A DNA stretch of 64,000 bases from NCBI RefSeq assembly GCF_036227325.1, contig NZ_CP109467.1, positions 496,001-560,000 on the forward strand, in the 5' to 3' direction. This DNA is from Streptomyces sp. NBC_01465 (GTDB taxonomy: Bacteria; Actinomycetota; Actinomycetes; Streptomycetales; Streptomycetaceae). Below the pieces are notes generated by a model, which did no database searches, was not told where the DNA came from, and saw only the letters and a program-made list of their open reading frames with translations. This document shows, one piece after another, positions 10,515 to 30,912 of the stretch (its first letter is position 1; each line of letters begins with the position of its first letter). Made by a program: the position numbers and the translations under genes.

Positions 10515-10579
10515 GTTAATCCACGCTAACGTCGATGTCCAGGCTTCTACCCTAGACAGCGTGGTTATCGAAGATTAAC
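10515..10579. promoter_or_regulatory. Two GTTA-N8-TAAC operators in the ALDH/ACAD divergent promoter
   Basis: Site 1 GTTAATCCACGCTAAC at 10515-10530 and site 2 GTTATCGAAGATTAAC at 10564-10579, centres 49 bp apart. Site 1 is nearer the ALDH-ADH operon, site 2 ends 45 bp before the ACAD GTG. The same palindrome class recurs at every other promoter of the cluster (25734, 25813, 29417, 30832, 30897). Candidate operators for the tandem-TetR regulator at 30992 (inference). Confidence 0.78.
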
Positions 10580-10624
10580 TTAGGCGCCGTTCGGTGCGTG
10601 TGCCGAACAGGCGAGGAAGGATCC

Positions 10625-11788
10625 GTGACCGTGCGTCGCAGCGTGTTCACCAAGGACCATGAGGCATTCCGGAAGACCCTCCGCGAGTTCATCGCCGGCG
10701 AGGTCGTCCCCCACTACGCCGACTGGGAGCAGCAGGGCCACGTCCCGCGCGAGCTGTACCGCAGGCTCGGCGAGCTCGGTGTCTTCGGCATCAACGTGCC
10801 CGAGGAGTACGGCGGGGCGGGCGTCACGGACTTCACATATCTGACGGTGCTGCGCGAGGAGTGCGGGCGCGCGGGCGTCACGTTCGGCGCGGAGTCGGTG
10901 CACACCTGCCTCGTGCTGCCCTATCTGCTGGAGTTCGGCAGCGAGGAGCAGAAGCGGCGCTGGCTGCCCGGTTTCCTCTCCGGCGAGATCATGACCGCGA
11001 TCGCCATGACGGAGCCCGGCACCGGATCCGACCTGGCCGGCATCGCCACGCGCGCCCGGCTCTCCGACGACGGCACCCACTATGTGCTCAACGGCGCCAA
11101 GACGTTCATCACCGGCGGCGCGCAGGCGGATCTGATCCTGGTCGTCTGCCGCACCTCGCCGTACGACCCGGAGAACCGGCGCGCGGGCCTGTCGATCCTG
11201 TGCGTGGACACGACGTCCCCGGGCTTCGCCGTGGGACGCAAACTGGACAAGATCGGGCTCAAGGCGCAGGACACCGCCGAGTTGTCGTTCGGCGACGTCG
11301 AGGTTCCGGTGGCCAACCTGCTCGGCGAGGAGGGTGCCGCATTCACGTACCTCACGCACAACCTCGTCGTGGAGCGGCTCGGCGCGGCCATCGGCGCGTA
11401 CGCGAACGCGGCCGGTGCGATCGGCTTCGCCACCGCGTACGTGAAGGAGCGTCAGGTCTTCGGCAAGCCGGTCGCCGCCTTCCAGAACACCAAGTTCGTG
11501 CTCGCCGAGTGCGCCGCCGAGGTCGAGGCCGCGCAGTCGATCGTGGACCGCGCGCTGCTCGAACACGCCGCGGGAGAGCTGACCGCCGCCGACGCCGCGA
11601 AGGCGAAACTGTTCTGCACCGAGGTCGCGGGCCGCGTGATCGACAAGTGCCTTCAGCTGCACGGTGGTTACGGCTACATGCTCGAATACCCGATCGCGCG
11701 CCTCTACGCGGACACCCGCGTCAACCGGATCTACGCCGGTACCAGCGAGGTCATGAAGACGATCATCGCCAAGGACCTCGGGCTCTGA
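10625..11788 (+). CDS. Acyl-CoA dehydrogenase (LCAD/IVD-like)
   Basis: 387-aa FAD enzyme making trans-2-enoyl-CoA from acyl-CoA, handing electrons to ETF. FAD/substrate signature AMTEPGTGSDLAGI; C-terminal LQLHGGYGYMLEYPIARLY and IYAGTSEVMK. The residue matching the catalytic Glu376 of MCAD is Ala (IYAGTSE), so the base is probably the Glu in VVERLGAA, as in long-chain and isovaleryl enzymes. GTG 10625 follows GAGGAAGG. First gene of a five-gene plus-strand operon (dehydrogenase, thiolase, thioesterase, hydratase, CoA ligase). Closely similar in layout to the enzymes at 24553 and 28238, suggesting duplications with different chain or branch specificity. Confidence 0.94.
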   Translation: MTVRRSVFTKDHEAFRKTLREFIAGEVVPHYADWEQQGHVPRELYRRLGELGVFGINVPEEYGGAGVTDFTYLTVLREECGRAGVTFGAESVHTCLVLPYLLEFGSEEQKRRWLPGFLSGEIMTAIAMTEPGTGSDLAGIATRARLSDDGTHYVLNGAKTFITGGAQADLILVVCRTSPYDPENRRAGLSILCVDTTSPGFAVGRKLDKIGLKAQDTAELSFGDVEVPVANLLGEEGAAFTYLTHNLVVERLGAAIGAYANAAGAIGFATAYVKERQVFGKPVAAFQNTKFVLAECAAEVEAAQSIVDRALLEHAAGELTAADAAKAKLFCTEVAGRVIDKCLQLHGGYGYMLEYPIARLYADTRVNRIYAGTSEVMKTIIAKDLGL

Positions 11789-11827
11789 GCCCGCCCTCTC
11801 CCCCGCACTCCCCCAGGAGGAACCCCC

Positions 11828-12994
11828 ATGCGTGACGCCGTCATCGTCGACGCCGTACGTACCCCCGTCGGCAAGCGGGGCGGCTCGCTCTCGCGGCTGC
11901 ACTCCGCCTCGCTCTCCGCCCATGTGCTCAACGCCCTGGTGGAGCGCACCGGCCTCGACCCGTCGCTCGTCGACGATGTGATCTGGGGCTGCGCCTCGGC
12001 GGTCGGTATGCAGGCCGGATGTGTGGGCCGCGCGTCCGTGCTGGCCGCCGGATGGCCCGAGTCCGTTCCCGGGCTGACCGTCGACCGCCAGTGCGGCTCC
12101 TCGCAGCAGGCCGTGCACCAGGCGGCGGCCGGTGTCGTCTCGGGCCAGTACGACATCGCCGTGGCCGGTGGCGTCGAGATCATGAGCACCCTCCCGCTCG
12201 GTACCACGCGCGGCGACGGCAGCTTCGGCGAGCCCTTCGGCCCGGACGTCTGGGCGCGCTACGACAACGTCCGCTTCAACCAGGGCACGGGCGCCCAGCT
12301 CATCGCCGACGAGTACGGCATCACCCGTACCGAGATGGACCAGCACGGCCTGGACTCCCACGCCCGCGCCGCCGCGGCCATCGACGAGGGCCGCTTCACG
12401 GGCCAGATCGCCCCGATCACGGTCACCGACGAGGACGGCACCACACGCGTCTTCGACACCGACGAGGGCGTGCGCCGAGGCTCCACCCTGGAGAAGCTGG
12501 CCGCGCTCAAGCCCGCCTTCCGCGAGGACGGCACCATCACCGCGGGCAACGCCTCGCAGGTCTCCGACGGCACCGGCGCCCTCCTCGTCACCACGAGCGA
12601 GATCGCCAGGGCGCACGGTTGGACGCCAATGGCCCGTATCCACACGGCAGTTGTCACCGGTACCGACCCGGTCACCATGCTCAAGGGCCCGATCCCCGCC
12701 ACCGCCAAGGCACTGAAGAAGGCCGGTCTCTCGATCGGCGACATCGGCGCCTTCGAGATCAACGAGGCGTTCGCCTCCGTCTCGCTGGCCTGGCTGCGCG
12801 AGACCGGCGCCGACTACGCGAAGATGAACCCGCTCGGCGGCGCGATGGCCATCGGCCATCCGATCGGCGGCTCCGGCGCCCGCATCATGACGACCCTGGT
12901 GCACCACATGCGCGACAACGGCATCCGCTACGGCCTCCAGTCGATGTGCGAGGGCGGCGGCATGGCGAACGCCACCATCCTTGAACTCCTGTGA
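11828..12994 (+). CDS. Thiolase (acetyl-CoA C-acyltransferase)
   Basis: 388-aa thiolase cleaving 3-oxoacyl-CoA with CoA. Nucleophile Cys in RQCGSSQQAVHQ, NEAFA block, His in IGHPIGGSGAR, and the second catalytic Cys in MCEGGGMANA. Length is that of degradative thiolase I. ATG at 11828 follows CAGGAGGAAC. Its stop overlaps the GTG of the thioesterase gene by 4 nt. It is a close paralogue of the thiolase at 25865 (same N-terminus MRDAVIVDAVRTPVG), consistent with duplication within this cluster. Confidence 0.95.
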   Translation: MRDAVIVDAVRTPVGKRGGSLSRLHSASLSAHVLNALVERTGLDPSLVDDVIWGCASAVGMQAGCVGRASVLAAGWPESVPGLTVDRQCGSSQQAVHQAAAGVVSGQYDIAVAGGVEIMSTLPLGTTRGDGSFGEPFGPDVWARYDNVRFNQGTGAQLIADEYGITRTEMDQHGLDSHARAAAAIDEGRFTGQIAPITVTDEDGTTRVFDTDEGVRRGSTLEKLAALKPAFREDGTITAGNASQVSDGTGALLVTTSEIARAHGWTPMARIHTAVVTGTDPVTMLKGPIPATAKALKKAGLSIGDIGAFEINEAFASVSLAWLRETGADYAKMNPLGGAMAIGHPIGGSGARIMTTLVHHMRDNGIRYGLQSMCEGGGMANATILELL

Positions 12995-13869
12995 CGACGG
13001 CCCCTGTTGCAGGCCAGGAATTCGCCGGATTCCTGAACCTGGAGCAACTGGACCGCGACCTCTTCCTCGGCTGGTGCCACGACGGCATGCCCTCCCGCGT
13101 CTTCGGCGGACAAGTGGCGGCCCAGGCGCTCGCAGCAGCCGGACGCACGGTGCCCGAGGGACGCGCCGTGCACTCACTGCACGGCTACTTCCTGCGGCCC
13201 GGCGACTCGGCGCGGCCCATCGAGTACGCCGTGGAGCGCGTGCGCGACGGCGGATCGTATGTGTCGCGCCGGGTGACGGCCCGGCAGGGACCGGACATCA
13301 TCTTCACGCTCTCCTCCTCCTTCAAGAAGGCGGAAGAGGGCGGCGACCGGCAGTCGGCGATGCCGCCTACGCCCGCCCCGTGGACGCTCCCGGATCTGTA
13401 CGAGCTCTGGGCCGGCAACAACCCCGAGGACTGCGAAGCGGCCGAGTTCCGCCGGGTCCTCGACATGCGGTACGTACCGGACGCGGCCGAGCCGAACACG
13501 CCGGGGACCACGGAACAGCGGCTGTGGATCCGCTCCAACGAGCCGTTGCCGGACGACCCGATGCTGCACAGCGCCGCTCTCGCGTACGCCTCCGATCTCT
13601 TCCTCGCTCCGGCCGCCGCACTGTCGGTCGAACAACCCCGGATGCTGCGCGAGGAGCCCGCGTCGGTCTTCCTCACCTCGCTCGACCACGCGGTCTGGTA
13701 CCACCGTCCGTTCCGCGCCGACGAGTGGATGCTGTTCGCCCAGCGCAGTCCCACCGCGGGCGACGGCCGCGGCCTCGCCTTCGCCGACGTATGGAGCCAC
13801 GACGGCAGACTGATCGCCCATGTCGTGCAGGAGACCGTCGTGCGGCCGGCGCGGGCGCGCCGCCCCTGA
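12991..13869 (+). CDS. Acyl-CoA thioesterase II (TesB family)
   Basis: 292-aa double-hotdog thioesterase releasing free acid and CoA. N-terminal FLNLEQLDRDLFLGWCHDG and RVFGGQVAAQALAAAGRTV; HSLHGYFLRPGDS and FTLSSSFKKAEEG are typical TesB blocks, with the catalytic Asp region LDHAVWYHRPFRADEW in the second hotdog. GTG start sits in a GTGA overlap with the thiolase stop. In a catabolic operon it may relieve CoA trapping by dead-end branched or short acyl-CoAs (inference). Confidence 0.93.
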   Translation: MTTAPVAGQEFAGFLNLEQLDRDLFLGWCHDGMPSRVFGGQVAAQALAAAGRTVPEGRAVHSLHGYFLRPGDSARPIEYAVERVRDGGSYVSRRVTARQGPDIIFTLSSSFKKAEEGGDRQSAMPPTPAPWTLPDLYELWAGNNPEDCEAAEFRRVLDMRYVPDAAEPNTPGTTEQRLWIRSNEPLPDDPMLHSAALAYASDLFLAPAAALSVEQPRMLREEPASVFLTSLDHAVWYHRPFRADEWMLFAQRSPTAGDGRGLAFADVWSHDGRLIAHVVQETVVRPARARRP

Positions 13870-13910
13870 ACATCCCCCTCCTTCCTCCCCCTCTCATCAA
13901 AGGAACCTTC

Positions 13911-14675
13911 ATGTCCGATCTGGTCCTCACCTCGTTCGCGGACGGGGTCGCCGTCATCACCATCAACCGCCCCGAGGCCCGTAACGCGGTCAACCGGGCG
14001 GTGGCGGACGCCGTCGCCACGGCCGTCGACGAGCTGGAGTCCCGCGACGATCTCGTCGTCGGTGTGATCACCGGCGCGGGCGGCACCTTCTGCGCCGGCG
14101 CCGACCTCAAGGCCCTTGCCGCCGGGGAGCGTTCGGGCATACCCGGCCGCGGTTTCTGCGGCGTCACCGAGACCCCGCCCGCCAAGCCGCTCATCGCCGC
14201 GGTCGAGGGGTACGCGCTCGGCGGCGGTACGGAGCTGGCCCTGGCCTGCGACATGATCGTCGCCGCCCGGACCGCCCGGTTCGGCCTGCCGGAGACCAAG
14301 CGCGGGCTGATCGCGGCCGGCGGCGGACTGGTGCGGCTGCCGCGGAAGATCCCGTACAACATCGCCATGCAGTACGCACTCACCGGCGCCTTCCTCGGTG
14401 CCGAGCGCGCCCATGAGCTGGGCCTGGTCAACGAACTCACCGCGCAGGGAGGCGCGTTGGAGGGGGCGCTGACCCTCGCCCAGGAGATCGCAGCCAACGG
14501 CCCTCTGGCCGTGCGCGCCAGCAAGGGCATCGTGGTCGACTCCGCGGACTGGGCGGCCGACGAGGCGTGGGACCGCAATCGCGCCGCGTGCGCCCCGGTG
14601 TTCGCATCGGCCGACGCCAAGGAGGGCGCGCTGGCGTTCACCGAGAAGCGGGCCCCTGTGTGGGGCGGCCGCTGA
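13911..14675 (+). CDS. Enoyl-CoA hydratase/isomerase (crotonase family)
   Basis: 254-aa crotonase hydrating 2-enoyl-CoA. Oxyanion-hole segment GAGGTFCAGADLKAL and EGYALGGGTELALACDMIVA are clear. In the active-site loop LPETKRGLIAAGGG the first Glu is present, but the second acidic position of classic hydratases (usually Glu followed by GG) is Ala, as in many FadB-like or isomerase-type crotonases, so exact chemistry is uncertain. ATG 13911 follows AAAGGAAC. Fourth gene of the plus operon. Confidence 0.9.
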   Translation: MSDLVLTSFADGVAVITINRPEARNAVNRAVADAVATAVDELESRDDLVVGVITGAGGTFCAGADLKALAAGERSGIPGRGFCGVTETPPAKPLIAAVEGYALGGGTELALACDMIVAARTARFGLPETKRGLIAAGGGLVRLPRKIPYNIAMQYALTGAFLGAERAHELGLVNELTAQGGALEGALTLAQEIAANGPLAVRASKGIVVDSADWAADEAWDRNRAACAPVFASADAKEGALAFTEKRAPVWGGR

Positions 14676-14797
14676 CGGCTCCGCAGCCGCGCCTCACCCC
14701 CCGGTGCGACCCGTCGCCGAGCTCCACGGCACCGGGGTGATCCACAGCTACAGTCCCGAGGCACCGCCCGGGCATGTCCGAACGAAGGAGTTCCGCC

Positions 14798-16489
14798 ATG
14801 ACCACCACCTGGCCCCACGGCCTGCCCCGCACCCTCGACTACCCTGGAGGCACCGTCGCGGACCTGCTCGCCGGCTCCGCGCATGCCTATGGCGACCGTG
14901 CGGCGCTGACCGACGGCGACGAGAGCCTGACGTACGCGGAGCTCTACGAACGGTCCCTGCGGGTCGCCCAGGGGCTGCGCGAACAGGGCATTGCCCCGGG
15001 TGATGCCGTCGCCGTGCACATGCCCAACTCGATCTGGTTCACCGTCGCCTACTACGGCATCCTCTTCGCCGGGGCGTCCGTGGTGCCGGTCAATCCCACG
15101 CAGCCCCCGCTCGCCCTGCGCCGCCAGCTGGACGACTCCGGCGCGGTCGCGGTCTTCACCCACCCCGCGGTCGCGGCGCCGCTGGCCCAGGCCGTCGGGG
15201 ACTCGCCCACGGTCCGCCTCGTCTCCGTCGCCCCGGCGACCGTCGCGGCCCCGGCCCCTGCCGGGGACCCGGTTTCGTTCCCGGTCGCCACGGTCGCGTA
15301 CGAGGACCTGCTGAAGGCCGGGGCCGCGCCGCCGACCGCGGTGGCCGGGGACGCGGTCGCGCACCTCGCCTTCACCGGGGGTACGACGGGCGTGCCCAAG
15401 GCCGTACGGGTGCTGCACCGCAACCTCCTCAAGAACGTGCTCCAGGTGGCGTGCTGGCGCAGCGCCGCCACCCCGCACACGGACGAGCGCGGCCGCATCA
15501 CGCTGCGCCATGCGGCCGGGGCCCGGACCGAGCACCACATTCCGCTGGGCACCTCCGCCGGAATCTCCATCGCCCCGCTCTTCCACGGCATGGGCATGGT
15601 CAGCCAGAGCGTCTTCGCCGCCGCGGGGATCTCCATGGTGGTGTTCGGCCGGTTCGACGCGGTCAGGTACCTGGACACCATCGAGCGGCTGCGCGTCCAC
15701 ACCATCGCCGGCTCACCTGCTCTGTGCCATGCCGTCCTCGCCGTACCGGACGTGCGCAAGCGTGACCTGACGTGCGTACGGGTCGTCAGCAGCGGGTCCG
15801 CGCCCATCAACCCGGCCGTGGTCGAGGAACTCTCGGAGATCTTCCCGAACGCCGTCGTCAGTGACGGATACGGGCTGACCGAGGCCACCATGGGGGTCGC
15901 GATCAGCCCGCTGGACCGCTCGCTGCCGCGGCCCTCGGGCAGCACCGGCCTGGCGCTCTTCGACACCGAGATCCAGATCCGGGAGATGGACGGCGTCACC
16001 CCCCTGGCAGCGGGTGAGAAGGGCGAGGTCTGGGTCCGCGGTCCGCAGATCACGGACGGCTATCTCGGACACCCCGAACTCACCGCGGGGCAGTACGTCG
16101 ACGGCTGGCTGCGCACCGGCGACCTCGGTACGTACGACGAGCAGGGCTGGCTCTCGCTGGTGGGCCGAGCAAAAGACATGCTCATCTACAAGGGGTACAA
16201 CGTGTATCCGGGCCCGCTGGAGAACATCCTGCGCGAGCACCCGGCGGTCGCCCAGGCGTCCGTCGTGGGCCGGCCGCACCCCGAGCACGGCGAAATCCCG
16301 GTCGCCTTCGTCTCGTTGAAGACCGATGCGGACGAGCCGGCGAGTGCGGAAGAACTGATCGCGTACGTCGCCGAGCGCGTCGCCCCGTACCAGCGGGTGC
16401 GCGAGGTGGTGCTCGTGGACGAGCTGCCGCTCTCGGCGACGGGCAAGATCCTCAAGACGGAGCTCAGGCGGCGGGCGACGGGCGCCTGA
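14798..16489 (+). CDS. Acyl-CoA ligase (AMP-forming)
   Basis: 563-aa ANL-superfamily ligase activating a carboxylate to its CoA thioester through an acyl-AMP. P-loop TGGTTGVPKAV, A5 motif DGYGLTEATMG, A8 hinge LRTGDLGTYDEQGWL with GRAKDMLIYKGYNVYP, and the A10 Lys in PLSATGKILKTEL. ATG 14798 is preceded by AAGGAG at 7 nt; the longer frame from 14774 has no RBS. An unusual ~20-residue insertion around RNLLKNVLQVACWRSAATP-HTDERGRITLRHAAG may affect the substrate pocket. Last gene of the plus operon; about 120 nt separate it from the hydratase. Confidence 0.92.
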   Translation: MTTTWPHGLPRTLDYPGGTVADLLAGSAHAYGDRAALTDGDESLTYAELYERSLRVAQGLREQGIAPGDAVAVHMPNSIWFTVAYYGILFAGASVVPVNPTQPPLALRRQLDDSGAVAVFTHPAVAAPLAQAVGDSPTVRLVSVAPATVAAPAPAGDPVSFPVATVAYEDLLKAGAAPPTAVAGDAVAHLAFTGGTTGVPKAVRVLHRNLLKNVLQVACWRSAATPHTDERGRITLRHAAGARTEHHIPLGTSAGISIAPLFHGMGMVSQSVFAAAGISMVVFGRFDAVRYLDTIERLRVHTIAGSPALCHAVLAVPDVRKRDLTCVRVVSSGSAPINPAVVEELSEIFPNAVVSDGYGLTEATMGVAISPLDRSLPRPSGSTGLALFDTEIQIREMDGVTPLAAGEKGEVWVRGPQITDGYLGHPELTAGQYVDGWLRTGDLGTYDEQGWLSLVGRAKDMLIYKGYNVYPGPLENILREHPAVAQASVVGRPHPEHGEIPVAFVSLKTDADEPASAEELIAYVAERVAPYQRVREVVLVDELPLSATGKILKTELRRRATGA

Positions 16490-16502
16490 CGACGGTGGGC
16501 AT

Positions 16503-16549: not shown

Positions 16550-16558
16550 GTGCGGCCG

Positions 16559-18427
16559 TTACGGAAGGACGATCGGGAAGTTGCGCGCCGGGTTCTCCAG
16601 CAGCCCGTGGAAGGTGGCGAGCACACCGGCGTCGCCGTCCATCGTCACGGCCCCGGATCCGATGGCGTCCGTGAACGAGATCAGGTGCGCGAGGATCCGG
16701 TCGAACGTGGCCCGCTCCAGGTGCAGGGTCAGCTGTGGAGCCTCTCCGTCGGGTGCGTCGCCCTTCATCGGGGTGAGCACACCGTTGCCGACGAGGAGCG
16801 TCCACACCTCGTCGGTGTCGGTGAACTCCCAGCGCAGCAGCAGCCGGTGGGCCGCTGCGCGCGGGCCGTGCAGCCGTACGGCCATCGAGTCGAAGAGCTG
16901 TCCGGTGGTGAGCGCGGCCAGCATGTCCACGCTCTCGCCGCGCGGTGCGCCCTTGGCGCGCTTCTCCTGACCGGCCTCGCGCAGCTCCTTGGCACCGGTG
17001 AGGTAGATGTTGCGCCAGGTGCCGTTCTCCTGGGCGAAGCCCAGCCGCTCGTACGTGGCGATCTGCAGCTCTCGGGCCGCGAGGTGCTCCGGCTCGGCGA
17101 ACAGGACGTGGTTGAGCAACTCGGCGGCCCAGCGCAGGTCTTCGGCCTCGAACGCCTCGCGGGCCGAGGCGACGGTGGCATCGGCGCCGCCGATCGCGGC
17201 GACGTACCGCTTCGCCTGCTCGACCGGCGGGTGCTGCCACAGGTGGGCGGGGTTTCCGTCGTACCAGCCCATGTAGCGCTGGTAGACCGCCTTCACGTTG
17301 TGGCTGATGGACCCGTAGTAGCCGCGCGTGTTCCAGGCCCGGCCCAGCTCGCCGGGGAAGGACTGGATCTCCTCGGCTATCTCGGGGCCGGTCAGGCCGC
17401 GGTTCATCAGCCGCACCGTCTGGTCGTGGAGATAGGCGTACGCGTCGCGCTGCTCGGTCAGCATGCGCATGACCTGCTCGCGGCCCCAGGTCGGCCAGTT
17501 GTGGGAGCCGATGAGCACATCGGTCTCCGGGAACAGCTGGATCGACTCGGTGATGTACGCCGCCCACGCATGGGCGTCGCGGACCTGTGCGCCGCGCAGG
17601 GTGAGGACGTTGTGCAGCGAGTGGTTGACGTTCTCGGCGATGAGGAGGACCCGGTGCTCGGGGAGATGGAAGTTCATCTCCGCGGGCGCCTCGGTGTCGG
17701 GGGTGAGCTGGAAGACCAGCCGGACGCCGTCCAGGACCAGTTCCTGCCCGGTGCGGACGATGTCCCGCGTCGGCGGGACCAGGCCCACGGTGCCGGTGGA
17801 AAGTGCCTGGCCCAGGCCGAAGCCGACCGAGGCCTCCGGGCCGACGGGCAGCGAGCGGCCGTACATGTAGACGGCGCGGCGGAGCATCGCGGGGCCGGCG
17901 AAGATGTTCTCGCTCACCGCGTGGTCCATGAACCCCTCGGGCGCGATCACCGCGCACTCGCCGGCCGCGACCGCCTCGGCGGTGGTGACGCCGAGGACAC
18001 CGCCGAAGTGGTCGCCGTGGCTGTGCGTATAGATGACGGCCTTCACCGGGCGCTCGCCGCGGTTGCGGCGATAGAGCTGCAGCGCGGCGGCCGCGACCTC
18101 CTTGGAGGTGAGCGGGTCGACGACCACGACACCGCTCTCGCCCTCGACGATCGTCATGTTGGAGACGTCGAGTCCGCGGACCTGGTAGATGCCGGGCACG
18201 ACCTCGAAGAGGCCCTGGGCGGTGTTGAGTCCGCTCTGCCGCCAGAGGCTGGGGTGGACGGTCTCGGGGCACTGGTCCTTGGTGAGGAAGTCCCAGCGGT
18301 CGTTGTCCCAGACGACCCGGCCCGCTTCGTTGCGTACGACACAGGGCTCGAGCCGGTCGATCAGGCCACGCGTGGCGTTGACCCGGTCTGTGGTGTCGTC
18401 CCAGTCGAGTTCGGGGAGGGAAGGCAT
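16559..18427 (-). CDS. Second alkylsulfatase (SdsA/YjcS-type)
   Basis: 622-aa alkyl sulfate hydrolase with metal motif HSHGDH at residues 135-140 in YTHSHGDHFGGV, the ENVNHSLHNVLTLRG block, VLIGSHNWPTWG, and a C-terminal SCP2-like domain. Clearly the same family as 5457-7361 but divergent in the metal motif (HSHGDH versus HTHVDH), so different substrate range or stereochemistry (primary versus secondary esters) is plausible. The longer frame to 18559 overlaps the previous gene and is rejected; start is ATG 18427, 15 nt after the preceding stop. It is the last of eight genes in a minus operon whose other members are all acyl-CoA enzymes, which directly links sulfate-ester cleavage to beta-oxidation. 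Confidence 0.93.
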   Translation of the reverse strand: MPSLPELDWDDTTDRVNATRGLIDRLEPCVVRNEAGRVVWDNDRWDFLTKDQCPETVHPSLWRQSGLNTAQGLFEVVPGIYQVRGLDVSNMTIVEGESGVVVVDPLTSKEVAAAALQLYRRNRGERPVKAVIYTHSHGDHFGGVLGVTTAEAVAAGECAVIAPEGFMDHAVSENIFAGPAMLRRAVYMYGRSLPVGPEASVGFGLGQALSTGTVGLVPPTRDIVRTGQELVLDGVRLVFQLTPDTEAPAEMNFHLPEHRVLLIAENVNHSLHNVLTLRGAQVRDAHAWAAYITESIQLFPETDVLIGSHNWPTWGREQVMRMLTEQRDAYAYLHDQTVRLMNRGLTGPEIAEEIQSFPGELGRAWNTRGYYGSISHNVKAVYQRYMGWYDGNPAHLWQHPPVEQAKRYVAAIGGADATVASAREAFEAEDLRWAAELLNHVLFAEPEHLAARELQIATYERLGFAQENGTWRNIYLTGAKELREAGQEKRAKGAPRGESVDMLAALTTGQLFDSMAVRLHGPRAAAHRLLLRWEFTDTDEVWTLLVGNGVLTPMKGDAPDGEAPQLTLHLERATFDRILAHLISFTDAIGSGAVTMDGDAGVLATFHGLLENPARNFPIVLP

Positions 18428-18441
18428 CGCTACTCGTCTCT

Positions 18442-20540: not shown

Positions 20541-20574
20541 GGTGGCCTTTCGGGCGGTACGAGGAGTGGGGTGG

Positions 20575-21357: not shown

Positions 21358-21373
21358 GGCCGTCCCTCCCTCT

Positions 21374-22918: not shown

Positions 22919-22968
22919 GAAGGAGTCCCTCCATCGTCGTTGGCAGAGGATGCCGGCGGTACGGGGCG

Positions 22969-23736: not shown

Positions 23737-23766
23737 GTGCTGCTCTCAACTCCGGTGGTGGACGGT

Positions 23767-24531
23767 CTACTTGGGGGCCATGCGGATGGCGCCGTCGAGG
23801 CGGATCGTCTCGCCGTTGAGCATCGGGTTCTCGATGATGGACGTCGCCAGGTGGGCGTACTCGGAGGGGTCGCCGAGCCGCGAGGGGTGCGGGACCTGGG
23901 CACCGAGCGCGTCGAGGAACTCCTGCGGCTTCTTGTTGAGCAGCGGGGTGGAGAAGAGTCCGGGGGCGATGGTCATCACGCGGATCTTGGCGGCGGCCAG
24001 GTCGCGGGCGATCGGCAGGGTCATCCCGACGATGCCTGCCTTGGAGGCGGAGTAGGCGCACTGGCCGATCTGGCCCTCGTACGCGGCAGCAGATGCGGTG
24101 TTGATGATGACGCCGCGCTCGCCGTCGACCTCCTCGGTCTTCGCCATCTCGGCGGCGGCCAGGCGCAGCACGTTGAAGGTGCCGATGAGGTTGACGCCGA
24201 CGACGAACTCGAAGTCCTCGAGGGCGTACGGAGTGCCGTCGCGCTTGACGGTGCGGCCGCCCTTGCCGAGGCCCGCACAGTTGACGGTGATGCGCAGGGG
24301 CGCCTGGGCGGCCGCGGTCGCGACGGCGCGGGCGGCGTCGTCCGCGCTGCGGACGTCACCGGCGACGAAGTGTGCGCGCTCGCCGAGCTCCTTGGCGATC
24401 TGCTCGCCCGCGGAGGTGGGCAGGTCCAGCAGGACGACGTGGGCGCCCTGGTCGATGAGGCGCTTGACGGTGGCGAGGCCCAGGCCCGATGCGCCGCCGG
24501 TGACGACGGCGGAGACTCCGTTGATCTGCAT
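23767..24531 (-). CDS. SDR 3-hydroxyacyl-CoA dehydrogenase type II (HSD17B10-like)
   Basis: 254-aa short-chain dehydrogenase. Motifs [32 protein letters not shown], catalytic [23 protein letters not shown] and [10 protein letters not shown] match the 17-beta-HSD10 / 2-methyl-3-hydroxybutyryl-CoA dehydrogenase family, which oxidises 3-hydroxyacyl-CoAs including 2-methyl branched ones. That preference fits the methylacyl-CoA racemase in the cluster. Second gene of the eight-gene minus operon, 21 nt after the acyl-CoA dehydrogenase. Confidence 0.9.
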
Positions 24532-24552
24532 GATGCTGGTTCCGTTCCGGTT

Positions 24553-25710
24553 TCAGAGGCCGATGGACTTGGCGATGATGGTCTTCATGACTTCGCTGGT
24601 GCCGCCGTAGATCCGCATGACGCGGGTGTCGGCGTAGAGGCGGGCGATCGGGTATTCGAGCATGTAGCCGTAACCGCCGTGCAGCTGGAGGCACTTGTCG
24701 ATGACGCGGCCCGCGGTCTCGGTGCACAGGAGCTTGGCCATGGCCGCGTAGTCGGCGCCGAGCTCGCCCGCCGCGTCGCGCTCCAGGGCCTCGTACGCCA
24801 TGAGCCTGGCCGCTTCGACCTCGGTGGCGCACTCGGCGAGCACGAACTTGGTGTTCTGGAAGGACGCCACGGACTTGCCGAAGACGGTGCGGTCCCGGGT
24901 GTAGTCGCGGGCGAACGAGACGGCCGCGTCGGCTGCGGCGGCGGCCTGGACGGCGATCACGAGGCGCTCGCGGGCCAGGTTCCTGCCGAGGCAGAAGAAG
25001 CCCTCGCCCTCGACGCCGAGGAGGTTCTCCACCGGCACCTTCACGTCGGTGAAGGAGAGTTCGGCGGTGTCGGATGCGTGCAGGCCGATCTTGTGCAGGC
25101 TGCGGCCGACGGCGAAGCCCTCGCTCCTGGCGTCCACGACCAGAATCGACAGGCCCAGGCGGCGGTTGTCCGCGGGGGCGGGCGCCGTACGGCAGACCAC
25201 CAGGACGAGATCGCACTGCGTGCCGCCGGTGATGAAGGTCTTGGCTCCATTGAGGACGTAGTGCGTGCCGTCCTCGGAAAGCTGCGCCTTCGTCTGGATT
25301 CCGGCCAGGTCCGAGCCCGTGCCGGGCTCGGTCATCGCGATGGAGAGCATGAGGTCGCCGGAGACGCAGCCGGGGACCCAGCGCTGCTTCTGCTCCTCGG
25401 TCCCGAAGTGGAGCAGGTACGGCAGGATGATGTTGGAGTGCGTCATCGCGGTGCCGAGAGTGGCTCCGGCCCGGGCGACCTCCTCCGCGAGCACGGCACC
25501 GAAGTGGTGGCCGCTCTGGCCTCCGCCGCCGTACTCCTCGGGCACCTCCATGCCGAGGAGACCGAGCTCGCCGAGCCTGCGGTAGAAGTCGCGCGGCACG
25601 GCCTTCGCCGCCACCCAGTCCTGCAGGTGCGGTACCGCCTCCTTGGCCAGGAAGCTCCGCACCATCTCCCGGAACGCCTCGTGCTCCTCGTTGTACACCG
25701 TGCGCGGCAT
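24553..25710 (-). CDS. Acyl-CoA dehydrogenase (LCAD/IVD-like)
   Basis: 385-aa FAD enzyme, first gene of the minus operon. AMTEPGTGSDLAGI, KTFITGGTQCDLVLVV, and C-terminal HGGYGYMLEYPIARLYADTR, IYGGTSEVMK. Gly replaces Glu at the MCAD Glu376 position; the base is probably Glu in LARERLVIA, as in LCAD. Very like 28238-29395 over the whole length, and preceded by an almost identical promoter block, which points to a recent duplication of gene plus promoter. An operator-like GTTA-N8-TCAC lies 24 nt upstream of ATG 25710. Confidence 0.95.
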   Translation of the reverse strand: MPRTVYNEEHEAFREMVRSFLAKEAVPHLQDWVAAKAVPRDFYRRLGELGLLGMEVPEEYGGGGQSGHHFGAVLAEEVARAGATLGTAMTHSNIILPYLLHFGTEEQKQRWVPGCVSGDLMLSIAMTEPGTGSDLAGIQTKAQLSEDGTHYVLNGAKTFITGGTQCDLVLVVCRTAPAPADNRRLGLSILVVDARSEGFAVGRSLHKIGLHASDTAELSFTDVKVPVENLLGVEGEGFFCLGRNLARERLVIAVQAAAAADAAVSFARDYTRDRTVFGKSVASFQNTKFVLAECATEVEAARLMAYEALERDAAGELGADYAAMAKLLCTETAGRVIDKCLQLHGGYGYMLEYPIARLYADTRVMRIYGGTSEVMKTIIAKSIGL

Positions 25711-25733
25711 GACTGCCTCTCTCCCGATCTTGG

Positions 25734-25777
25734 GTTAGCCGGTCTTCACTTTCATGCCCGTTTGCCGCGCTGTCAAG
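25734..25777 (-). promoter_or_regulatory. Promoter and operator of the eight-gene minus operon
   Basis: On the minus strand a consensus -35 TTGACA (25776-25771) is followed after 17 nt by a weak -10 GAAAGT (25753-25748). The operator-like palindrome GTTAGCCGGTCTTCAC (25734-25749 on plus) overlaps the -10 and start site. The 33-nt block 25745-25777 is matched at 28 of 33 positions by 29428-29460 in front of the other acyl-CoA dehydrogenase gene. Confidence 0.72.
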
Positions 25778-25812
25778 GCGTTCGCGGCGGGAGAGAAGTT
25801 CTAGACACTCAG

Positions 25813-25828
25813 GTTAGCTTGGAATAAC
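25813..25828 (+). promoter_or_regulatory. GTTA-N8-TAAC operator before the 25.9-kb thiolase
   Basis: GTTAGCTTGGAATAAC, 36 nt before the thiolase ATG. Its reverse complement GTTATTCCAAGCTAAC matches site 10515-10530 at 14 of 16 positions, including inner bases, so the similarity goes beyond the conserved arms. Confidence 0.78.
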
Positions 25829-25864
25829 TTAGTGGCTACTTTCCCCTTCCCTCAGGAGCAGCTC

Positions 25865-27037
25865 ATGCGTGACGCAGTGATCGTCGATGCCGTGCGGACC
25901 CCCGTCGGCAGGCGCGGCGGTTCCCTCTCGGCCATCCACCCCGTCGATCTCTCCGCCCACGTCCTGACCGCTCTCGCCGAGCGCAACGGCCTCGACCCGT
26001 CCGCCGTCGACGACGTCGTCTGGGGCACCGTGTCGCAGGTCGGCGAACAGGCGGGCGTCGTCGGCAGGTTCGCGGCTCTCGCGGCCGGCTGGCCGGAGTC
26101 GGTCCCCGGTGTCTCCGTCTCCCGCGCCTGCGGCTCCTCGCAGCAGTCCGTGCACTTCGCCGCGGGCCTGGTGACCGCCGGTCAGTACGACATCGCCGTC
26201 GCGGGCGGCGTGGAGTCGATGAGCCGGGTGCCGATGGGCTCGGCCCGCAGCGTCCCGGGTGCCGGACAGCCGTACGGACCGAGGGTGCGCGACCGCTACT
26301 TCCCCGAGGGCGGCGAGTTCGACCAGGGTGTGGGCGCCGAGCTCATCGCCGCGCAGTACGGCTTTACGCGTACGGAGCTCGACCAGCACGCCCTGGACTC
26401 GCACGAGCGCGCGGCCAAGTCCGTCGACGAGGGCCGCTTCACCTCCCAGATCACGCCGGTCACGGTCACCGACGCGGACGGCACGACGCGCGTCTTCGAC
26501 ACCGACGAGGGCATCAGGCGCGGCTCCACCCTGGAGAAGCTCGCCGGTCTGAAGACCCCATTCAAGGAAGACGGCGTGGTCAGCGCGGCGAACTCCTCGC
26601 AGATCTCCGACGGCGCCGCGGCGCTCCTCGTCACCACCTCCGAGATCGCCCACCGCAGCGGCTGGACCCCGATCGCCCGGGTGCACACGGCCGTTCTCGC
26701 CGGCTGCGACCCGGTGACGATGGCGCTCGGCCCGGCCCCGGCGACCGCCAAGGCCCTCAAGCGCTCCGGCCTGTCGATCGGCGACATCGGCGCCTTCGAG
26801 ATCAACGAGGCCTTCGCCCCGGTGACCCTGGCCTGGCTGAAGGAGACCGGCGCCGACTACGACCTGATGAACCCGCTCGGCGGTGCCATGGCGATCGGCC
26901 ACCCGCTGGGCGGCTCCGGTGCACGCCTGATGACGACGCTGGTGCACCACATGCGGGACAACAACATCCGCTACGGACTGCAGGCGATGTGCGAGGCGGG
27001 CGGCATGGCGAACGCGACGATCCTCGAACTCCTCTGA
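25865..27037 (+). CDS. Thiolase (acetyl-CoA C-acyltransferase)
   Basis: 390-aa degradative thiolase: nucleophile Cys in SRACGSSQQSVHFAAG, NEAFAPVTLAW, IGHPLGGSGARLM, MCEAGGMANATI. ATG 25865 is preceded by CAGGAG; the in-frame ATG-less extension to 25832 is rejected. Paralogue of 11828-12994. Single-gene plus-strand unit between the divergent minus operon and a convergent terminator. Confidence 0.95.
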   Translation: MRDAVIVDAVRTPVGRRGGSLSAIHPVDLSAHVLTALAERNGLDPSAVDDVVWGTVSQVGEQAGVVGRFAALAAGWPESVPGVSVSRACGSSQQSVHFAAGLVTAGQYDIAVAGGVESMSRVPMGSARSVPGAGQPYGPRVRDRYFPEGGEFDQGVGAELIAAQYGFTRTELDQHALDSHERAAKSVDEGRFTSQITPVTVTDADGTTRVFDTDEGIRRGSTLEKLAGLKTPFKEDGVVSAANSSQISDGAAALLVTTSEIAHRSGWTPIARVHTAVLAGCDPVTMALGPAPATAKALKRSGLSIGDIGAFEINEAFAPVTLAWLKETGADYDLMNPLGGAMAIGHPLGGSGARLMTTLVHHMRDNNIRYGLQAMCEAGGMANATILELL

Positions 27038-27054
27038 CCTTCACGGCACACGGG

Positions 27055-27087
27055 AAGGGGGGTGCGGCCTCGGCTGCACCCCCCTTT
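27055..27087. terminator. Hairpin with T-tail after the thiolase
   Basis: AAGGGGGGTGC (27055-27065) pairs with GCACCCCCCTT (27076-27086) around a 10-nt loop, followed by T. It lies between convergent genes. Confidence 0.78.
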
Positions 27088-27095
27088 CCATGTGC

Positions 27096-28241
27096 TCAGC
27101 GCTTCGGCGCCAGGCTGTCGACGACGGACGCGTCCAGCCCGATCTCCTCCAGCACTTCCCTGGTGTGCACACCGACCACCGGGGCGGGCCGCGGCACGGA
27201 GGCCGGGGTGCCCTGGAAACGCGGGGCGGGAGCGGGCTGCAGGAGTCCGTTCTCCGTGTAGTACGTGCCGCGGGCCACGTTGTGCGGATGGGTGGCGGCC
27301 TCGGTCAGTCCGTACACCGGCGTGACGCACGACTGCGTACCGTCGAAGGCCGTCGTCCACTCCTCGCGGGTGCGGGCGGCGAAGACCTCGTCGAGGCGCG
27401 CGGACATGGCGGGCCAGCCGCCCTGGTCGTGCTGGGATGCGAAGAGCGGGTCGTCGGTGAGGCCGAGGACGCGCAGGAGTTCGGCGTAGAACTGCGGCTC
27501 CACGCTGCCGACGGCCATGTGGCCGCCGTCGGAGGTGCGATAGGTGCGGTAGAAGGGCGCCGCCCCGTCGAAGAGATTCGACGCGCGCTCGTCCTTCCAG
27601 CGGCCGACCGCCAACAGGCCGTGGATCAAAGAGAGTTGGATCGCCGTTCCGTCGGTCATCGCGGCGTCGACGACCTGCCCCGTGCCCGTGCGCCCGGCAC
27701 TGACCAGCGCGGTGGTGATGCCCAGGGCCACCAGCATGCCGCCGCCGCCCATGTCGCCGAAGAGGTTGAGCGGGACGGGCGGGTTCTCGTCCGCCGCACC
27801 GAGCGCGCCGAGCGCGCCCGCGACCGCGATGTAGTTGATGTCATGCCCGGGCGCCTGCGCGAGCGGCCCGTCCTGGCCCCAGCCGGTCATCCGCCCGTAG
27901 ACCAGTTTGGGGTTACGGGAGAGACAGGCGTCGGGTCCGAGCCCGAGCCGCTCGGCGACGCCGGGGCGGAAGCCCTCGATGAGGGCGTCGGCGGTGTCGA
28001 TGAGGGCGCGTACGGCCTCGATGCTCGCCGGATCCTTCAGATCGAGCGTCACCGAGCGGCGCCCCCGGTGCAGGATCGGGTGCCGCGATGCGGTGCCGGC
28101 CTCGGCGGGGCGGTCGATGCGGATGACTTCGGCACCCTGGTCGGCGAGGAGCATGCCGGCGAAGGGGCCGGGGCCGATGCCGCCGAGTTCGACGACGCGG
28201 ATGCCGGCCAGCGGGCCGGCGGCCGAGGGTGCGGTGCTCAC
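27096..28241 (-). CDS. Alpha-methylacyl-CoA racemase (CaiB/BaiF class III family)
   Basis: 381-aa protein epimerising (2R)- and (2S)-methylacyl-CoA, needed because acyl-CoA dehydrogenases accept only the S form. N-terminal VVELGGIGPGPFAGMLLADQGAEVI; the racemase-specific block APGHDINYIAVAGALGALG with catalytic His of GHDINY, and the Asp-containing PLNLFGDMGGGGMLVALG, both as in Mcr/AMACR rather than in CoA transferases such as FRC or CaiB. GTG start at 28241 overlaps the acyl-CoA dehydrogenase stop by 4 nt (GTGA). Its presence implies methyl-branched substrates or intermediates. Confidence 0.9.
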   Translation of the reverse strand: MSTAPSAAGPLAGIRVVELGGIGPGPFAGMLLADQGAEVIRIDRPAEAGTASRHPILHRGRRSVTLDLKDPASIEAVRALIDTADALIEGFRPGVAERLGLGPDACLSRNPKLVYGRMTGWGQDGPLAQAPGHDINYIAVAGALGALGAADENPPVPLNLFGDMGGGGMLVALGITTALVSAGRTGTGQVVDAAMTDGTAIQLSLIHGLLAVGRWKDERASNLFDGAAPFYRTYRTSDGGHMAVGSVEPQFYAELLRVLGLTDDPLFASQHDQGGWPAMSARLDEVFAARTREEWTTAFDGTQSCVTPVYGLTEAATHPHNVARGTYYTENGLLQPAPAPRFQGTPASVPRPAPVVGVHTREVLEEIGLDASVVDSLAPKR

Positions 28242-29395
28242 AGTCCGAGGTCCTTGGCGATGATGGTCTTCATGACCTCGCTGGTGCCGCCGTAGATCCG
28301 TGAGACACGGGTGTCGGCGTAGAGGCGGGCGATCGGGTATTCGAGCATGTACCCGTAACCGCCGTGCAGTTGGAGGCACTTGTCGATGACACGGCCGGCG
28401 ACCTCGGTGCAGAACAGCTTGATCTTCGCGGCGTCCGCCGGCGACAGCTCATGGGTGTCGTCGAGCTCGATGCCCTTGTCGACCATGGCCTGGGCGGCCT
28501 CGACCTCGGCGGCGCACTCGGCGAGCACGAACTTGGTGTTCTGGAACGCGGCGACCGGCTTGCCGAAGACCTGGCGCTCCTGGACGTACGCCTTCGCGAA
28601 ACCGATGGCGGCACTCGCCGTCGCGACTCCGCCGACACCGATGGACAGACGCTCGCGGGCCAGGTTGTTCCCCAGGTACGAGAAGCCCTTCCCCACCTCG
28701 CCGAGGACGTTCTCCACCGGCACCCGGACGTCGGTGAAGGAGAGTTCGGAGGTGTCGCTGGCGCGCAGGCCGATCTTGTCGAGCTTGCGGCCGTAGCCGA
28801 AGCCCTCGCTGTCCGTCGGAACGACCAGCAGGGTCAGGCCGAAGCGGCGGTCCTCGGCGGTGGGCGCGGAGGTGCGGGCGGCGACGATGCACAGCTCGGA
28901 GTTGAGGGCGCCGGTGATGAAGGTCTTGGCTCCGTTGAGGACGTAGTGCGTGCCGTCCTCGGACAGTTCGGCCTTGGTGCGGATGCCCGCGAGGTCGGAT
29001 CCGGTGCCCGGCTCGGTCATCGCGATGCACAGCGTGATGTCGCCCGCGGCGATGCCCGGGAGCCAGCGCTCCTTCTGTGCGTCGTCGGCGATGCCGAGGA
29101 GGTACGGCAGGACGATGCCGGTGGTGACCGTGTAGTGGCCGAAGGAGACGGCGGCACGCGCGCACTCCTCGGCGATCACCGTCTGGTACTTGTAGCTGGT
29201 CTCCCCCGGGCCGCCGTACTCCTCGGGGATGCCGAAGCCCATGACACCGAGCTCGCCGAGCTGACGGAACAGCGTGCGCGGGACGCGGTTGTCCGCCTCC
29301 CACTGCGCGTAGTGCGGGGTCACTTCCTTGGCGATGAAGTCCCGGACGACGGACCGGAAGGCCTCGTGGTCCTCGTTGTACACCGTGCGCTTCAT
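28238..29395 (-). CDS. Acyl-CoA dehydrogenase, coupled to methylacyl-CoA racemase
   Basis: 385-aa FAD enzyme: AMTEPGTGSDLAGIRTKAEL, FITGALNSELCIV, QERQVFGKPVAAFQNTKFVL, HGGYGYMLEYPIARLYADTR and IYGGTSEVMK. The base is probably Glu in LARERLSIG because Gly occupies the YEGT-type position. Forms a two-gene operon with the racemase through a 4-nt overlap, an arrangement that suggests oxidation of (2S)-methylacyl-CoA produced by the racemase. Promoter with operator site lies at 29417-29460. Confidence 0.95.
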   Translation of the reverse strand: MKRTVYNEDHEAFRSVVRDFIAKEVTPHYAQWEADNRVPRTLFRQLGELGVMGFGIPEEYGGPGETSYKYQTVIAEECARAAVSFGHYTVTTGIVLPYLLGIADDAQKERWLPGIAAGDITLCIAMTEPGTGSDLAGIRTKAELSEDGTHYVLNGAKTFITGALNSELCIVAARTSAPTAEDRRFGLTLLVVPTDSEGFGYGRKLDKIGLRASDTSELSFTDVRVPVENVLGEVGKGFSYLGNNLARERLSIGVGGVATASAAIGFAKAYVQERQVFGKPVAAFQNTKFVLAECAAEVEAAQAMVDKGIELDDTHELSPADAAKIKLFCTEVAGRVIDKCLQLHGGYGYMLEYPIARLYADTRVSRIYGGTSEVMKTIIAKDLGL

Positions 29396-29416
29396 GATTC
29401 AGCCCTCCACCTACCG

Positions 29417-29460
29417 GTTATTGCTGATTCACTTTCTTGCCCGTTTGGCCTGGTGTCAAG
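29417..29460 (-). promoter_or_regulatory. Promoter and operator of the ACAD-racemase operon
   Basis: Minus-strand -35 TTGACA (29459-29454), 17-nt spacer, weak -10 GAAAGT (29436-29431), and the palindrome GTTATTGCTGATTCAC at 29417-29432. Layout identical to 25734-25777. Confidence 0.72.
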
Positions 29461-29494
29461 CCTCTCCAGTGCAGTCTTCGACGTTTTCAACGCA

Positions 29495-30790
29495 TCAGAA
29501 GCGTGCCGAGAGCGCGGCAGCGTCGCGGTCGGGGTCGACGAGCAGCAGGGCGATCGCGGCACCGACGCACATCGTGAGGCCGAGGATCAGGAAGCCGTTC
29601 CCGTAACCGGCCGCGGCCGAGGTGCCCGAGTCGACCAGTCCGCCGATCACGAGCGGGGCCACGACGCCACCGAGGCTGTAGACGCCGGTGACGATCCCGA
29701 AAACGGTGCCGCGCTGCTTCACCGGCGCCACATCGGCGAGGGCGGCGAAGGCGACGCCGTACCCGGCGGAGTTCAGGCAGGCCGCAAGTACGAGCAGCAC
29801 CATCTGCGGCACCCCGCGGTCCAGCGAGGCGAAGGCGACCGTGCAGATCCCCGAGGCCAGGACCATCACCCCGGGCAGGATGCCGCGGGTGATCCGGTTG
29901 CGGACTCCCCTGCGGGTGAGCGAACTGGAGAGCACACCGACGAGGATCACTGCCACCGCGGACCCCAGGAAGGGCAGCGCGACCAGCCGGCTCGCGGTGC
30001 CGGAGTCGTAGCCGAGGCCCTCGCGCAGATAGAGCGGCAGCCAGCTGACGCCGACGGCGGTGTTGGCGTAGGCGACGAAGAACAGCAGCAGCATGCCGAT
30101 GAGCGTTCCGGTCGAGAACAGCCGCCGCAGCGGCACCCGTTCGGGAAGAACCGTCGTTGTCGCGCTCCCGGCGGACGCGTGCTCGGGCCCGGAATCGCCG
30201 CCGAGCAGCCAGAGCAGCGCGACCACCGCGCCGCAGACCGCGAGGACCGCGAACGCCGCATGCCAGGAGTGCGTGTCGATGACCCAGGTCAGCACGGGTG
30301 CGGCGATCAGCGGGCCGACCCCCGCGCCGGCGATGACGATCGAGCTGGGCACGGTCCTGCGGTGGGCGGGGAACCACGAGTGCACGACCTGCATCGCCAG
30401 CGCGACCGTCGGCCCCTCCGCGAAGCCGAGCATCGCCCGGCAGACGACGATCGTGGTGAAGCCGACCTGGGCCGCCATGGGAGCGAGGCTCAGGACCCAC
30501 AACGCACTGACACCCGCCAGCAGCCATCGCGCCCGCACCCGGGTGCCGAGCCAGCCGCCCAGGACGGACCCCAGGGCGAACAGCCAGAAGAAGCTGCTCT
30601 GGATCACCCCGAACTGGGCGCTGTCCAGGCCCAGTTCCTTCTTCATGCTCACTCCGGAGAGGCCGACGACGACCTTGTCGGCGAAGTTGACGAGCATCAG
30701 ACAGACCAGCAGCGCGAGGACGGTCCACGCCCGCCGCCCGGCCGCAGGCGGCAGACCGGTGCGGGGCGCTTCTTGCTGTTCGACGGACAT
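29495..30790 (-). CDS. MFS transporter, anion:cation symporter (ACS) type
   Basis: 431-aa protein with about 12 membrane segments and a hydrophilic N-terminus. Between TM2 and TM3 lies GGWLGTRVRARWLL; TM4-TM5 contain GFAEGPTVALAMQVVHSWFP, a signature of the ACS family that takes up organic anions (hexuronates, phthalate, tartrate). In this setting it is the obvious candidate importer of an alkyl sulfate or its carboxylate derivative, since the sulfatases lack signal peptides. Start 30790 chosen over an upstream in-frame ATG because conserved residues begin there. An operator-like GTGA-N8-TCAC lies 41 nt upstream. Confidence 0.9.
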   Translation of the reverse strand: MSVEQQEAPRTGLPPAAGRRAWTVLALLVCLMLVNFADKVVVGLSGVSMKKELGLDSAQFGVIQSSFFWLFALGSVLGGWLGTRVRARWLLAGVSALWVLSLAPMAAQVGFTTIVVCRAMLGFAEGPTVALAMQVVHSWFPAHRRTVPSSIVIAGAGVGPLIAAPVLTWVIDTHSWHAAFAVLAVCGAVVALLWLLGGDSGPEHASAGSATTTVLPERVPLRRLFSTGTLIGMLLLFFVAYANTAVGVSWLPLYLREGLGYDSGTASRLVALPFLGSAVAVILVGVLSSSLTRRGVRNRITRGILPGVMVLASGICTVAFASLDRGVPQMVLLVLAACLNSAGYGVAFAALADVAPVKQRGTVFGIVTGVYSLGGVVAPLVIGGLVDSGTSAAAGYGNGFLILGLTMCVGAAIALLLVDPDRDAAALSARF

Positions 30791-30831
30791 GGCGGCACTC
30801 CCTGGTCCAGCGGGGCTGAGGTGAGCCGGAA

Positions 30832-30912
30832 GTGAATCACCGCTCACCTACCCGCACAAGACTTTGAGCGAACAACCCGAAGATGTGGACGCAAGAGTGA
30901 TTTTTGCTTAAC
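30832..30912. promoter_or_regulatory. Two GTGA-type operators in the MFS/tandem-TetR divergent promoter
   Basis: GTGAATCACCGCTCAC at 30832-30847 is close to the MFS start, and GTGATTTTTGCTTAAC at 30897-30912 lies 79 nt before the regulator ATG. Both fit GTKA-N8-TMAC, giving one site per divergent promoter as at 10.5 and 25.8 kb. Confidence 0.7.

Follow-up and report, generated by a model that had tools for sequence, protein, structure and literature searches.

The DNA considered here is a stretch of 64,000 nucleotides (the window; 70.6% G+C) from Streptomyces sp. NBC_01465, contig NZ_CP109467.1, which holds a cluster of genes for the breakdown of acyl-coenzyme A (acyl-CoA) compounds and alkyl sulfates. 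Its 20 genes – grouped by adjacency into seven units (Table 1) – end with the gene of a regulator in which two TetR DNA-binding domains are joined in one polypeptide. Each unit is preceded by one copy of the sequence GTKA-N8-TMAC, and we propose that the seven copies are the operators of this tandem-TetR protein, through which it would repress the whole cluster, its own gene included. We put the probability of the proposed mechanism, taken as a whole, at roughly 0.8.

An exact scan finds GTKA-N8-TMAC seven times in the window, at 10515, 10564, 25734, 25813, 29417, 30832 and 30897, in agreement with an initial annotation made from the sequence, and all seven matches are intergenic by the gene calls made in this analysis. 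In 100 dinucleotide-preserving shuffles of the window the mean was 1.16 matches and the largest count four, seven being reached in 0/100; the annotation's estimate of less than one chance match was slightly low, while the excess over chance that it described is borne out. Its assignment of one site to each transcription unit holds for seven units of seven, co-transcription being judged from adjacency alone, and its local regulon of about 19 genes is likewise supported, at a count of 20.

Table 1. Genes of the cluster and candidate operators in the window. Start codons, from which the distances between site and start are taken, were judged from the sequence.
Feature	Position	Strand	Site to start (nt)	Remarks
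Zinc alcohol dehydrogenase	7869..8951	-		Second gene of the aldehyde dehydrogenase unit; PF00107/PF08240
Aldehyde dehydrogenase	8972..10432	-		PF00171; start judged from sequence
Acyl-CoA dehydrogenase (ACAD), thiolase, TesB-like thioesterase, enoyl-CoA hydratase, AMP-binding ligase	10625..16489	+		Pfam
Eight-gene operon: ACAD, two short-chain dehydrogenases/reductases (SDRs), AMP-binding ligase, enoyl-CoA hydratase, two adjacent ACADs, alkylsulfatase	16559..25710	-		Pfam/NCBIfam
Second thiolase	25865..27037	+		TIGR01930
ACAD and CoA-transferase family III (racemase-like)	27096..29395	-		
Major facilitator superfamily (MFS) transporter	29495..30790	-		PF07690
Tandem (double) TetR regulator	30965..32167	+		400 amino acids; Mce3R-type; proposed repressor
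Candidate operator AAGTTAATCCACGCTAAC	10513..10530	+	82 (10432)	Aldehyde dehydrogenase promoter; 19.2 bits; minus-strand TGGACA-N17-TAACTT overlaps
Candidate operator AAGTTAATCTTCGATAAC	10564..10581	-	45 (10625)	ACAD promoter; 24.2 bits; + strand TAGACA-N17-TAACTT
Candidate operator AAGTGAAGACCGGCTAAC	25734..25751	-	23 (25710)	Before the eight-gene minus operon; 11.2 bits, weakest of the seven; TTGACA 21 nt upstream
Candidate operator AAGTTATTCCAAGCTAAC	25813..25830	-	36 (25865)	Second thiolase promoter; 21.7 bits; + strand TAGACA-N17-TAACTT
Candidate operator AAGTGAATCAGCAATAAC	29417..29434	-	21 (29395)	Before ACAD/CoA-transferase III; 22.6 bits; TTGACA 21 nt upstream
Candidate operator AAGTGAATCACCGCTCAC	30830..30847	+	41 (30790)	MFS side of the MFS/TetR intergenic region; 23.7 bits; no clear -35 in phase
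Candidate operator AAGTTAAGCAAAAATCAC	30897..30914	-	52 (GTG 30965)	Tandem-TetR gene's own promoter; 16.0 bits; + strand TGGACG-N17-TAACTT

Specificity, asymmetry and promoter context of the sites

Across the genome (9,138,776 bases in one contig), the loose pattern GTKA-N8-TMAC has 139 matches against 50 for its reversed control – mostly of the form GTGA-N8-TCAC among the matches listed – and is therefore not specific by itself. With its flank added, the picture narrows: AAGTDA-N8-TNAC occurs at 22 places, and the stricter AAGTKA-N8-TMAC, which all seven window sites fit, at 12 places in 9.14 Mb, seven of them being the window sites within their 20-kb cluster. The frequent occurrence at unrelated loci against which the initial annotation had warned is found for the loose pattern, at its 139 places in the genome and in 17 of 24 other acyl-CoA dehydrogenase loci, and we rejected it as a specific marker on these grounds; for AAGTKA-N8-TMAC no such spread is seen.

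The flank also gives each window site a direction, since AA adjoins one half-site in 7/7 sites and both half-sites in 0/7. Over 43 sites of the double-TetR family (described below), a one-sided model beats a symmetric one by a log-likelihood gain of 59.5 – 150 null simulations had a mean of 23.2 (sd 3.5) and a maximum of 36.4 – although these sites are related by descent, which inflates the gain. The two half-sites carry 13.9 and 7.7 bits of information, respectively. What had been annotated as a palindrome does consist of two inverted half-sites, but it is no true palindrome, and the operator is, from its sequence, best called a lopsided pseudo-palindrome. Such asymmetry, here seen across the 43 family sites, is a trait of double-TetR (Mce3R-type) regulators.

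The sites also keep a regular position relative to putative promoter boxes. Four of them (10515, on the minus strand, 10564, 25813 and 30897) end in TAACTT, 17 nt after a -35-like hexamer (Table 1), and over the Streptomyces genomes compared below the arrangement T[AG]GAC[AG]-N17/18-TAACTT recurs at 15 sites, with N17 in 14 and N18 in one. Sites 25734 and 29417 follow another rule: together with the orthologous sites examined, they start exactly 21 nt after TTGACA (11 cases) or TTGGCA (one) in 12 of 12 cases. At the seven sites of the 30832 class in the compared genomes, no consistent -35 box was found. Six of the seven window sites overlap a likely core promoter, as expected for a repressor, and this fixed phase with a -35-like box at six of seven units makes steric repression from the sites likely.

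The tandem-TetR protein and the distribution of the motif

Two separate stretches of the ~400-residue protein match the TetR DNA-binding domain PF00440, and its predicted fold is that of one asymmetric pseudo-dimer, formed by the two halves around a four-helix core as in double-TetR (Mce3R-type) regulators. It matches Mce3R of M. tuberculosis (PDB 9b7y) over its full length, at ~32% identity, as well as in fold; for its second half, BkaR is the closest single-domain relative by fold. The best NCBIfam match is to the SACE_7040 family (NF050111), in two stretches, but its 202.6 bits fall short of the curated threshold of 250; that model describes a single TetR unit of 186 positions, whereas the window protein is double. 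The FasR model (NF053731) gives 97.2 bits, below its curated cut-off of 330. As is usual for double-TetR (Mce3R-type) regulators, the promoter of the gene itself has a site: 30897 lies 52 nt ahead of the start codon and would allow autoregulation.

A scan of our genome collection for the regulator gave 22 loci, of which nine have it at full length – four Streptomyces (72–83% identity) and five Rhodococcus (40–57%) – and the remaining 13, partial or distant, were left out as relatives. At an identity of at least 70%, it is found in seven of 392 genomes of the genus, this genome included; four candidates were scored per genome, and here one of the four is a double TetR at E ≤ 1e-40. These seven genomes and S. 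zaomyceticus (L017) make up the eight Streptomyces compared. All eight have a site before the minus unit corresponding to 29417; in the other Streptomyces examined this unit begins with a different gene, to judge by its first codons, and in one genome (G308) three extra genes precede the ACAD. The stretch ahead of the regulator gene holds at least two sites in all eight, in some with intervening genes, and the promoter region of the ACAD operon and thiolase holds 13 of the 14 exact sites expected in the seven genomes that have it. In total, nine stretches of the eight genomes (79 kb) contain 51 sites, compared with 0 for the reversed control. Orthologues of the ACAD with at least 90% identity occur in six of the 392 genomes, all six with both the regulator and a site at the same place.

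The motif reaches well beyond these close relatives. A class-wide search detected a double TetR (E ≤ 1e-40) in 53 of 394 genomes, and from 132 double-TetR genes – some listed places having been left unfetched – 73 representatives with less than 80% identity were drawn, each represented by the sequence from 350 bp ahead of the start of the match to 30 bp beyond it. Unsupervised expectation–maximisation (EM) on these upstream regions recovers the window motif, with a log-likelihood of 340.3 compared with 88–102 in nine shuffles. In a leave-one-out search at 12 bits, the motif is present in 43 of the 73 representatives and in one of 219 sequences shuffled in two-base blocks, which makes the neighbouring tandem TetR a likely regulator of the sites; a matrix built from 42 representatives, after dropping the family that contains the Mce3R genus (f4), has an unchanged consensus. 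The motif is also found in a distant Streptomyces clade: its regulators, 32–35% identical to ours, cluster together in the tree (support 100/100), across the midpoint root from the window regulator, and the motif occurs in 29 of their 33 loci (39 sites against two reversed-control matches). Alignment of the class-wide loci clade by clade brings out footprints that are akin to the motif and equal to it in spacing, such as one resembling GAAGTAAATCAnnnGTAACCT in nine loci, and in the clade B loci the spacing of 8 stands out, with 15 cases as opposed to 0–2 at other spacings from 3 to 15. The recurrence of the sites in the seven other Streptomyces, the motifs upstream of distant double-TetR genes and the single double TetR among the four candidates together bear out the initial suggestion that the tandem TetR is the likely regulator. 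The literature searches made here brought up no description of this operator for fused double-TetR proteins.

Proposed repression and competing explanations

By analogy with Mce3R, the two TetR halves of each tandem polypeptide would pack together as one pseudo-dimer, and its two recognition helices, which differ from each other, would read a single site made up of the strong half WAAGTDAATC and the weaker, TAAC-related half 12 bp away. Without inducer, the protein would occupy the core promoters of the seven units, including its own, and block RNA polymerase. At four of these promoters the TAAC half would double as the -10 hexamer (T[AG]GAC[AG]-N17-TAACTT), and at two the site begins 21 nt after the TTGACA box. 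The repressor would be released by a pathway intermediate of the acyl-CoA or steroid-like CoA kind, which would switch on the 20-gene regulon of lipid and alkyl-sulfate breakdown; the cluster genes and the relatives of the regulator point to a CoA-thioester-like ligand of this kind.

The operator core itself is not new. The core of the BkaR operator is reported to span 16 bp, with the sequence GTTA(N)T(N4)A(N)TAAC; it stands in two copies in a divergent promoter and is bound by a dimer (PMC3920632). The initial annotation, which did not recognise the motif from any described regulator, has to be corrected on this point. BkaR (Fad35R; Rv2506, MSMEG_4718) resembles the window system in its GTTA-N8-TAAC core, in having two copies per divergent promoter and in being a TetR repressor of an acyl-CoA catabolic operon (PMC3920632). 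It differs in acting as a homodimer, whose subunits have one domain each, and in using a symmetric site that is flanked differently; in the window, by contrast, either T or G stands at the third position, one half-site outweighs the other, and a double TetR formed by fusion is the likely reader. Strict GTTA-N8-TAAC is found at three of the seven window sites, and one or both halves of the other four read GTGA/TCAC. The window thus pairs an operator like BkaR's with a protein like Mce3R's.

The main rival reading is that a BkaR-like single-domain TetR of the same genome reads the seven sites, alone or in cross-talk; if alone, the tandem TetR would have other targets. The genome likely does have a BkaR-like regulon: at L075:5565-5609 (G000:C1:2791564-2791608), two GTTA-N8-TAAC sites lie between the gene of a 192-residue TetR of the TetR_C_24 type and a carboxyltransferase gene. 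Besides this locus and the published core, the rival can claim that five BkaR-bound sites score 17.4–25.7 bits with the double-TetR matrix. Of the published sites left unbound by BkaR, three reach 6.9, 15.4 and 15.9 bits; as BkaR sites, bound and in part unbound, score so high, the matrix is not regulator-specific, and it fails to separate the window sites from the BkaR type, giving 15–16 bits even to two of the unbound ones. The rival also draws on 24 control loci, the next ACAD homologues in Streptomyces (L209-L232, at most 70% identity), of which 17 have the loose core somewhere in 4.2 kb, 14 of these 17 as a pair of sites ~30 bp apart (GTTA..CGTTAAC / GTTAACG..CTAAC); two of the 24 have it within 400 bp upstream of the dehydrogenase. 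In form the pairs are similar to the sites at L075, and they probably serve as operators for some other TetR. What tells against a BkaR-like reader is that the motif tracks the double-TetR gene, occurring at 43 of 73 representatives and at cluster genes in 8/8 Streptomyces with the regulator, and that the AA flank, present in 7/7 window sites, is missing from both L075 sites (0/2; they have a TAGACA box upstream) and matched in two of the 24 control loci; the loose core is shared between loci, the AA-flanked form much less so. We consider it unlikely that a BkaR-like protein is the reader, alone or together with the tandem TetR.

Apart from the matrix scores, the control loci and the kinship of the sites in the asymmetry test, several other results weigh against the tandem-TetR protein as the reader of the sites. 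A search for bare -35 boxes found them at 17 of 42 sites and at 101 of 588 shifted positions, a modest enrichment that is weak alone. The R. erythropolis-type orthologues (57% identity) have no exact site, only a divergent one. Near class-wide double-TetR genes exact GTKA-N8-TMAC is rare (2/29 loci), and the spacings 3, 6 and 9 are more frequent there than 8. EM on the 3' flanks, used as a control, reached a fairly high log-likelihood of 243 with a codon-like motif, and 30 of the 73 representatives – including most Streptomyces paralogues of 40% identity – lack a site in the 350 bp upstream.

Further results of this kind concern Mce3R. It is reported to fold as an asymmetric pseudo-dimer and to bind two asymmetric, non-palindromic 25-bp sequences, 53 bp apart, which are unlike the Fad35R (BkaR) operator (PMC11667970). 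When 148 genomes of one genus were sampled, 27 had orthologues of Mce3R (69–87% identity; L175-L201), and we had expected them to carry the consensus; this expectation failed, with one match in 1.5 kb upstream over 28 loci compared with 2.45 in shuffles, and the window system does not share its operator sequence with Mce3R. L116 (13.1 bits), which counts among the 43 positives, is itself an Mce3R orthologue, and its site is divergent. As its orthologues mostly lack the consensus upstream, Mce3R is, to judge from these regions, a derived branch or exception within the double-TetR family. Alignments read by eye reveal two conserved blocks upstream of the orthologues, of the ATGTCCATAG type and GATGTATCTTGATAGT, which look like operators of the Mce3R-like genes themselves; their spacing, roughly estimated at ~78 bp, would match the two published sites. 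A pattern search found GTCT-N8-TAAC, with the same spacing as the window motif, upstream of five of the orthologues' loci; this is the divergent form seen at L116.

There are two further rival explanations. The conserved sequence could be a promoter element, namely the -10 region of T[AG]GACA-N17-TAACTT, and TAACTT does follow a -35-like box by 17 nt at four window sites; at the other three, however, the motif is the same but its phase is different or there is no phased -35. Conservation extends to both half-sites, and distant double-TetR genes have the motif upstream as well; we regard this explanation as very improbable. Alternatively, AT-rich intergenic DNA in a G+C-rich genome might yield a short degenerate palindrome by chance, as the 139 genome matches of the loose pattern might suggest. 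The shuffles of the window, of which 0/100 reached seven, and the conservation across genomes speak strongly against this, and so does the prominence of spacing 8 in the clade B loci (15 vs 0–2); a chance origin was rejected on the shuffle and spacing counts, and we give it almost no weight.

If the tandem-TetR protein is the reader, the window cluster defines a directly testable 20-gene regulon. On a broader view, to which we give even odds, the fusion of two BkaR-like TetR units would have kept the BkaR-type operator while its halves diverged, much of the double-TetR family of the Actinomycetes would read a single lopsided operator, AAGTDAATC-N5-TNAC, always in the same orientation, and Mce3R with its non-palindromic operator would have departed from this later. 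The operator would then point to the targets of dozens of uncharacterised double-TetR regulators, which are known mainly – in the literature surveyed – through Mce3R and an operator described as non-palindromic. Should the association hold, much of the wider family would have in common a readable, BkaR-derived operator code, its regulons would become predictable and tied to clusters for lipid and steroid-like breakdown, and the family would represent a natural experiment in which a homodimeric DNA reader became a fused one with two unlike halves.

Cluster genes, weaker matches and other loci

Two ACADs of the eight-gene operon, of 326 and 373 residues, look like partners in enzymes built of two subunits (the PDB hits are 6wy8/6wy9, which are Tcur3481/Tcur3483, and 4x28); we take these structures to be steroid-type heteromers. 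A possible identification of the enoyl-CoA hydratase and two ACADs at 18442-21357 with echA13-fadE17-fadE18 of the Mce3R regulon went unconfirmed, as NCBIfam gave no such names. Next to the cluster lies a second alkylsulfatase-like gene (5457-7361), with no operator match at 10 bits, and near it a gene resembling electron transfer flavoprotein alpha (4345-5307).

At a threshold of at least 10 bits, the double-TetR matrix finds three weaker places in the window in addition to the seven sites. A possible eighth, weak site, GAAGTGAACTGGCACTCTGC at 10448 (12.6 bits), stands directly before the aldehyde dehydrogenase start; the hits at 42180 (15.5 bits) and 62692 (13.1 bits) are intergenic and do not match the exact core, and their neighbours are a ROK/ricin-lectin and a glyoxalase/LacI gene pair, respectively.

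Elsewhere in the genome, strong sites of 17.6 and 20.5 bits (L076:6345 and 6972; G000:C1:3398344, 3398971) surround genes for a 186-residue TetR, an MFS transporter and a MaoC-domain protein, and belong either to a separate, local TetR circuit or to a distant target of the tandem regulator. The genome match at L077 adjoins imelysin, ABC and substrate-binding genes; TTAGGTTAGGCTAACC-like genome matches resemble iron boxes. In the control loci, the paired sites stand several hundred bases from the dehydrogenase in L214, L217, L219, L220, L222-L227 and L229-L232 and are candidates for a widespread two-site operator.

Among the relatives, many Mce3R-like genes (L175-L201) stand behind a co-directional small gene that is SnoaL-like in appearance. 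Two loci of the distant Streptomyces clade were checked for neighbours; both have an MPAB/Lcp-type oxygenase gene beside the regulator, and one also has an AMP-binding ligase gene. At another locus, TGGAGATGWCATCTCCA is repeated five times in tandem at 37-bp intervals on the 3' side of a double-TetR gene (L107:1265-1429).

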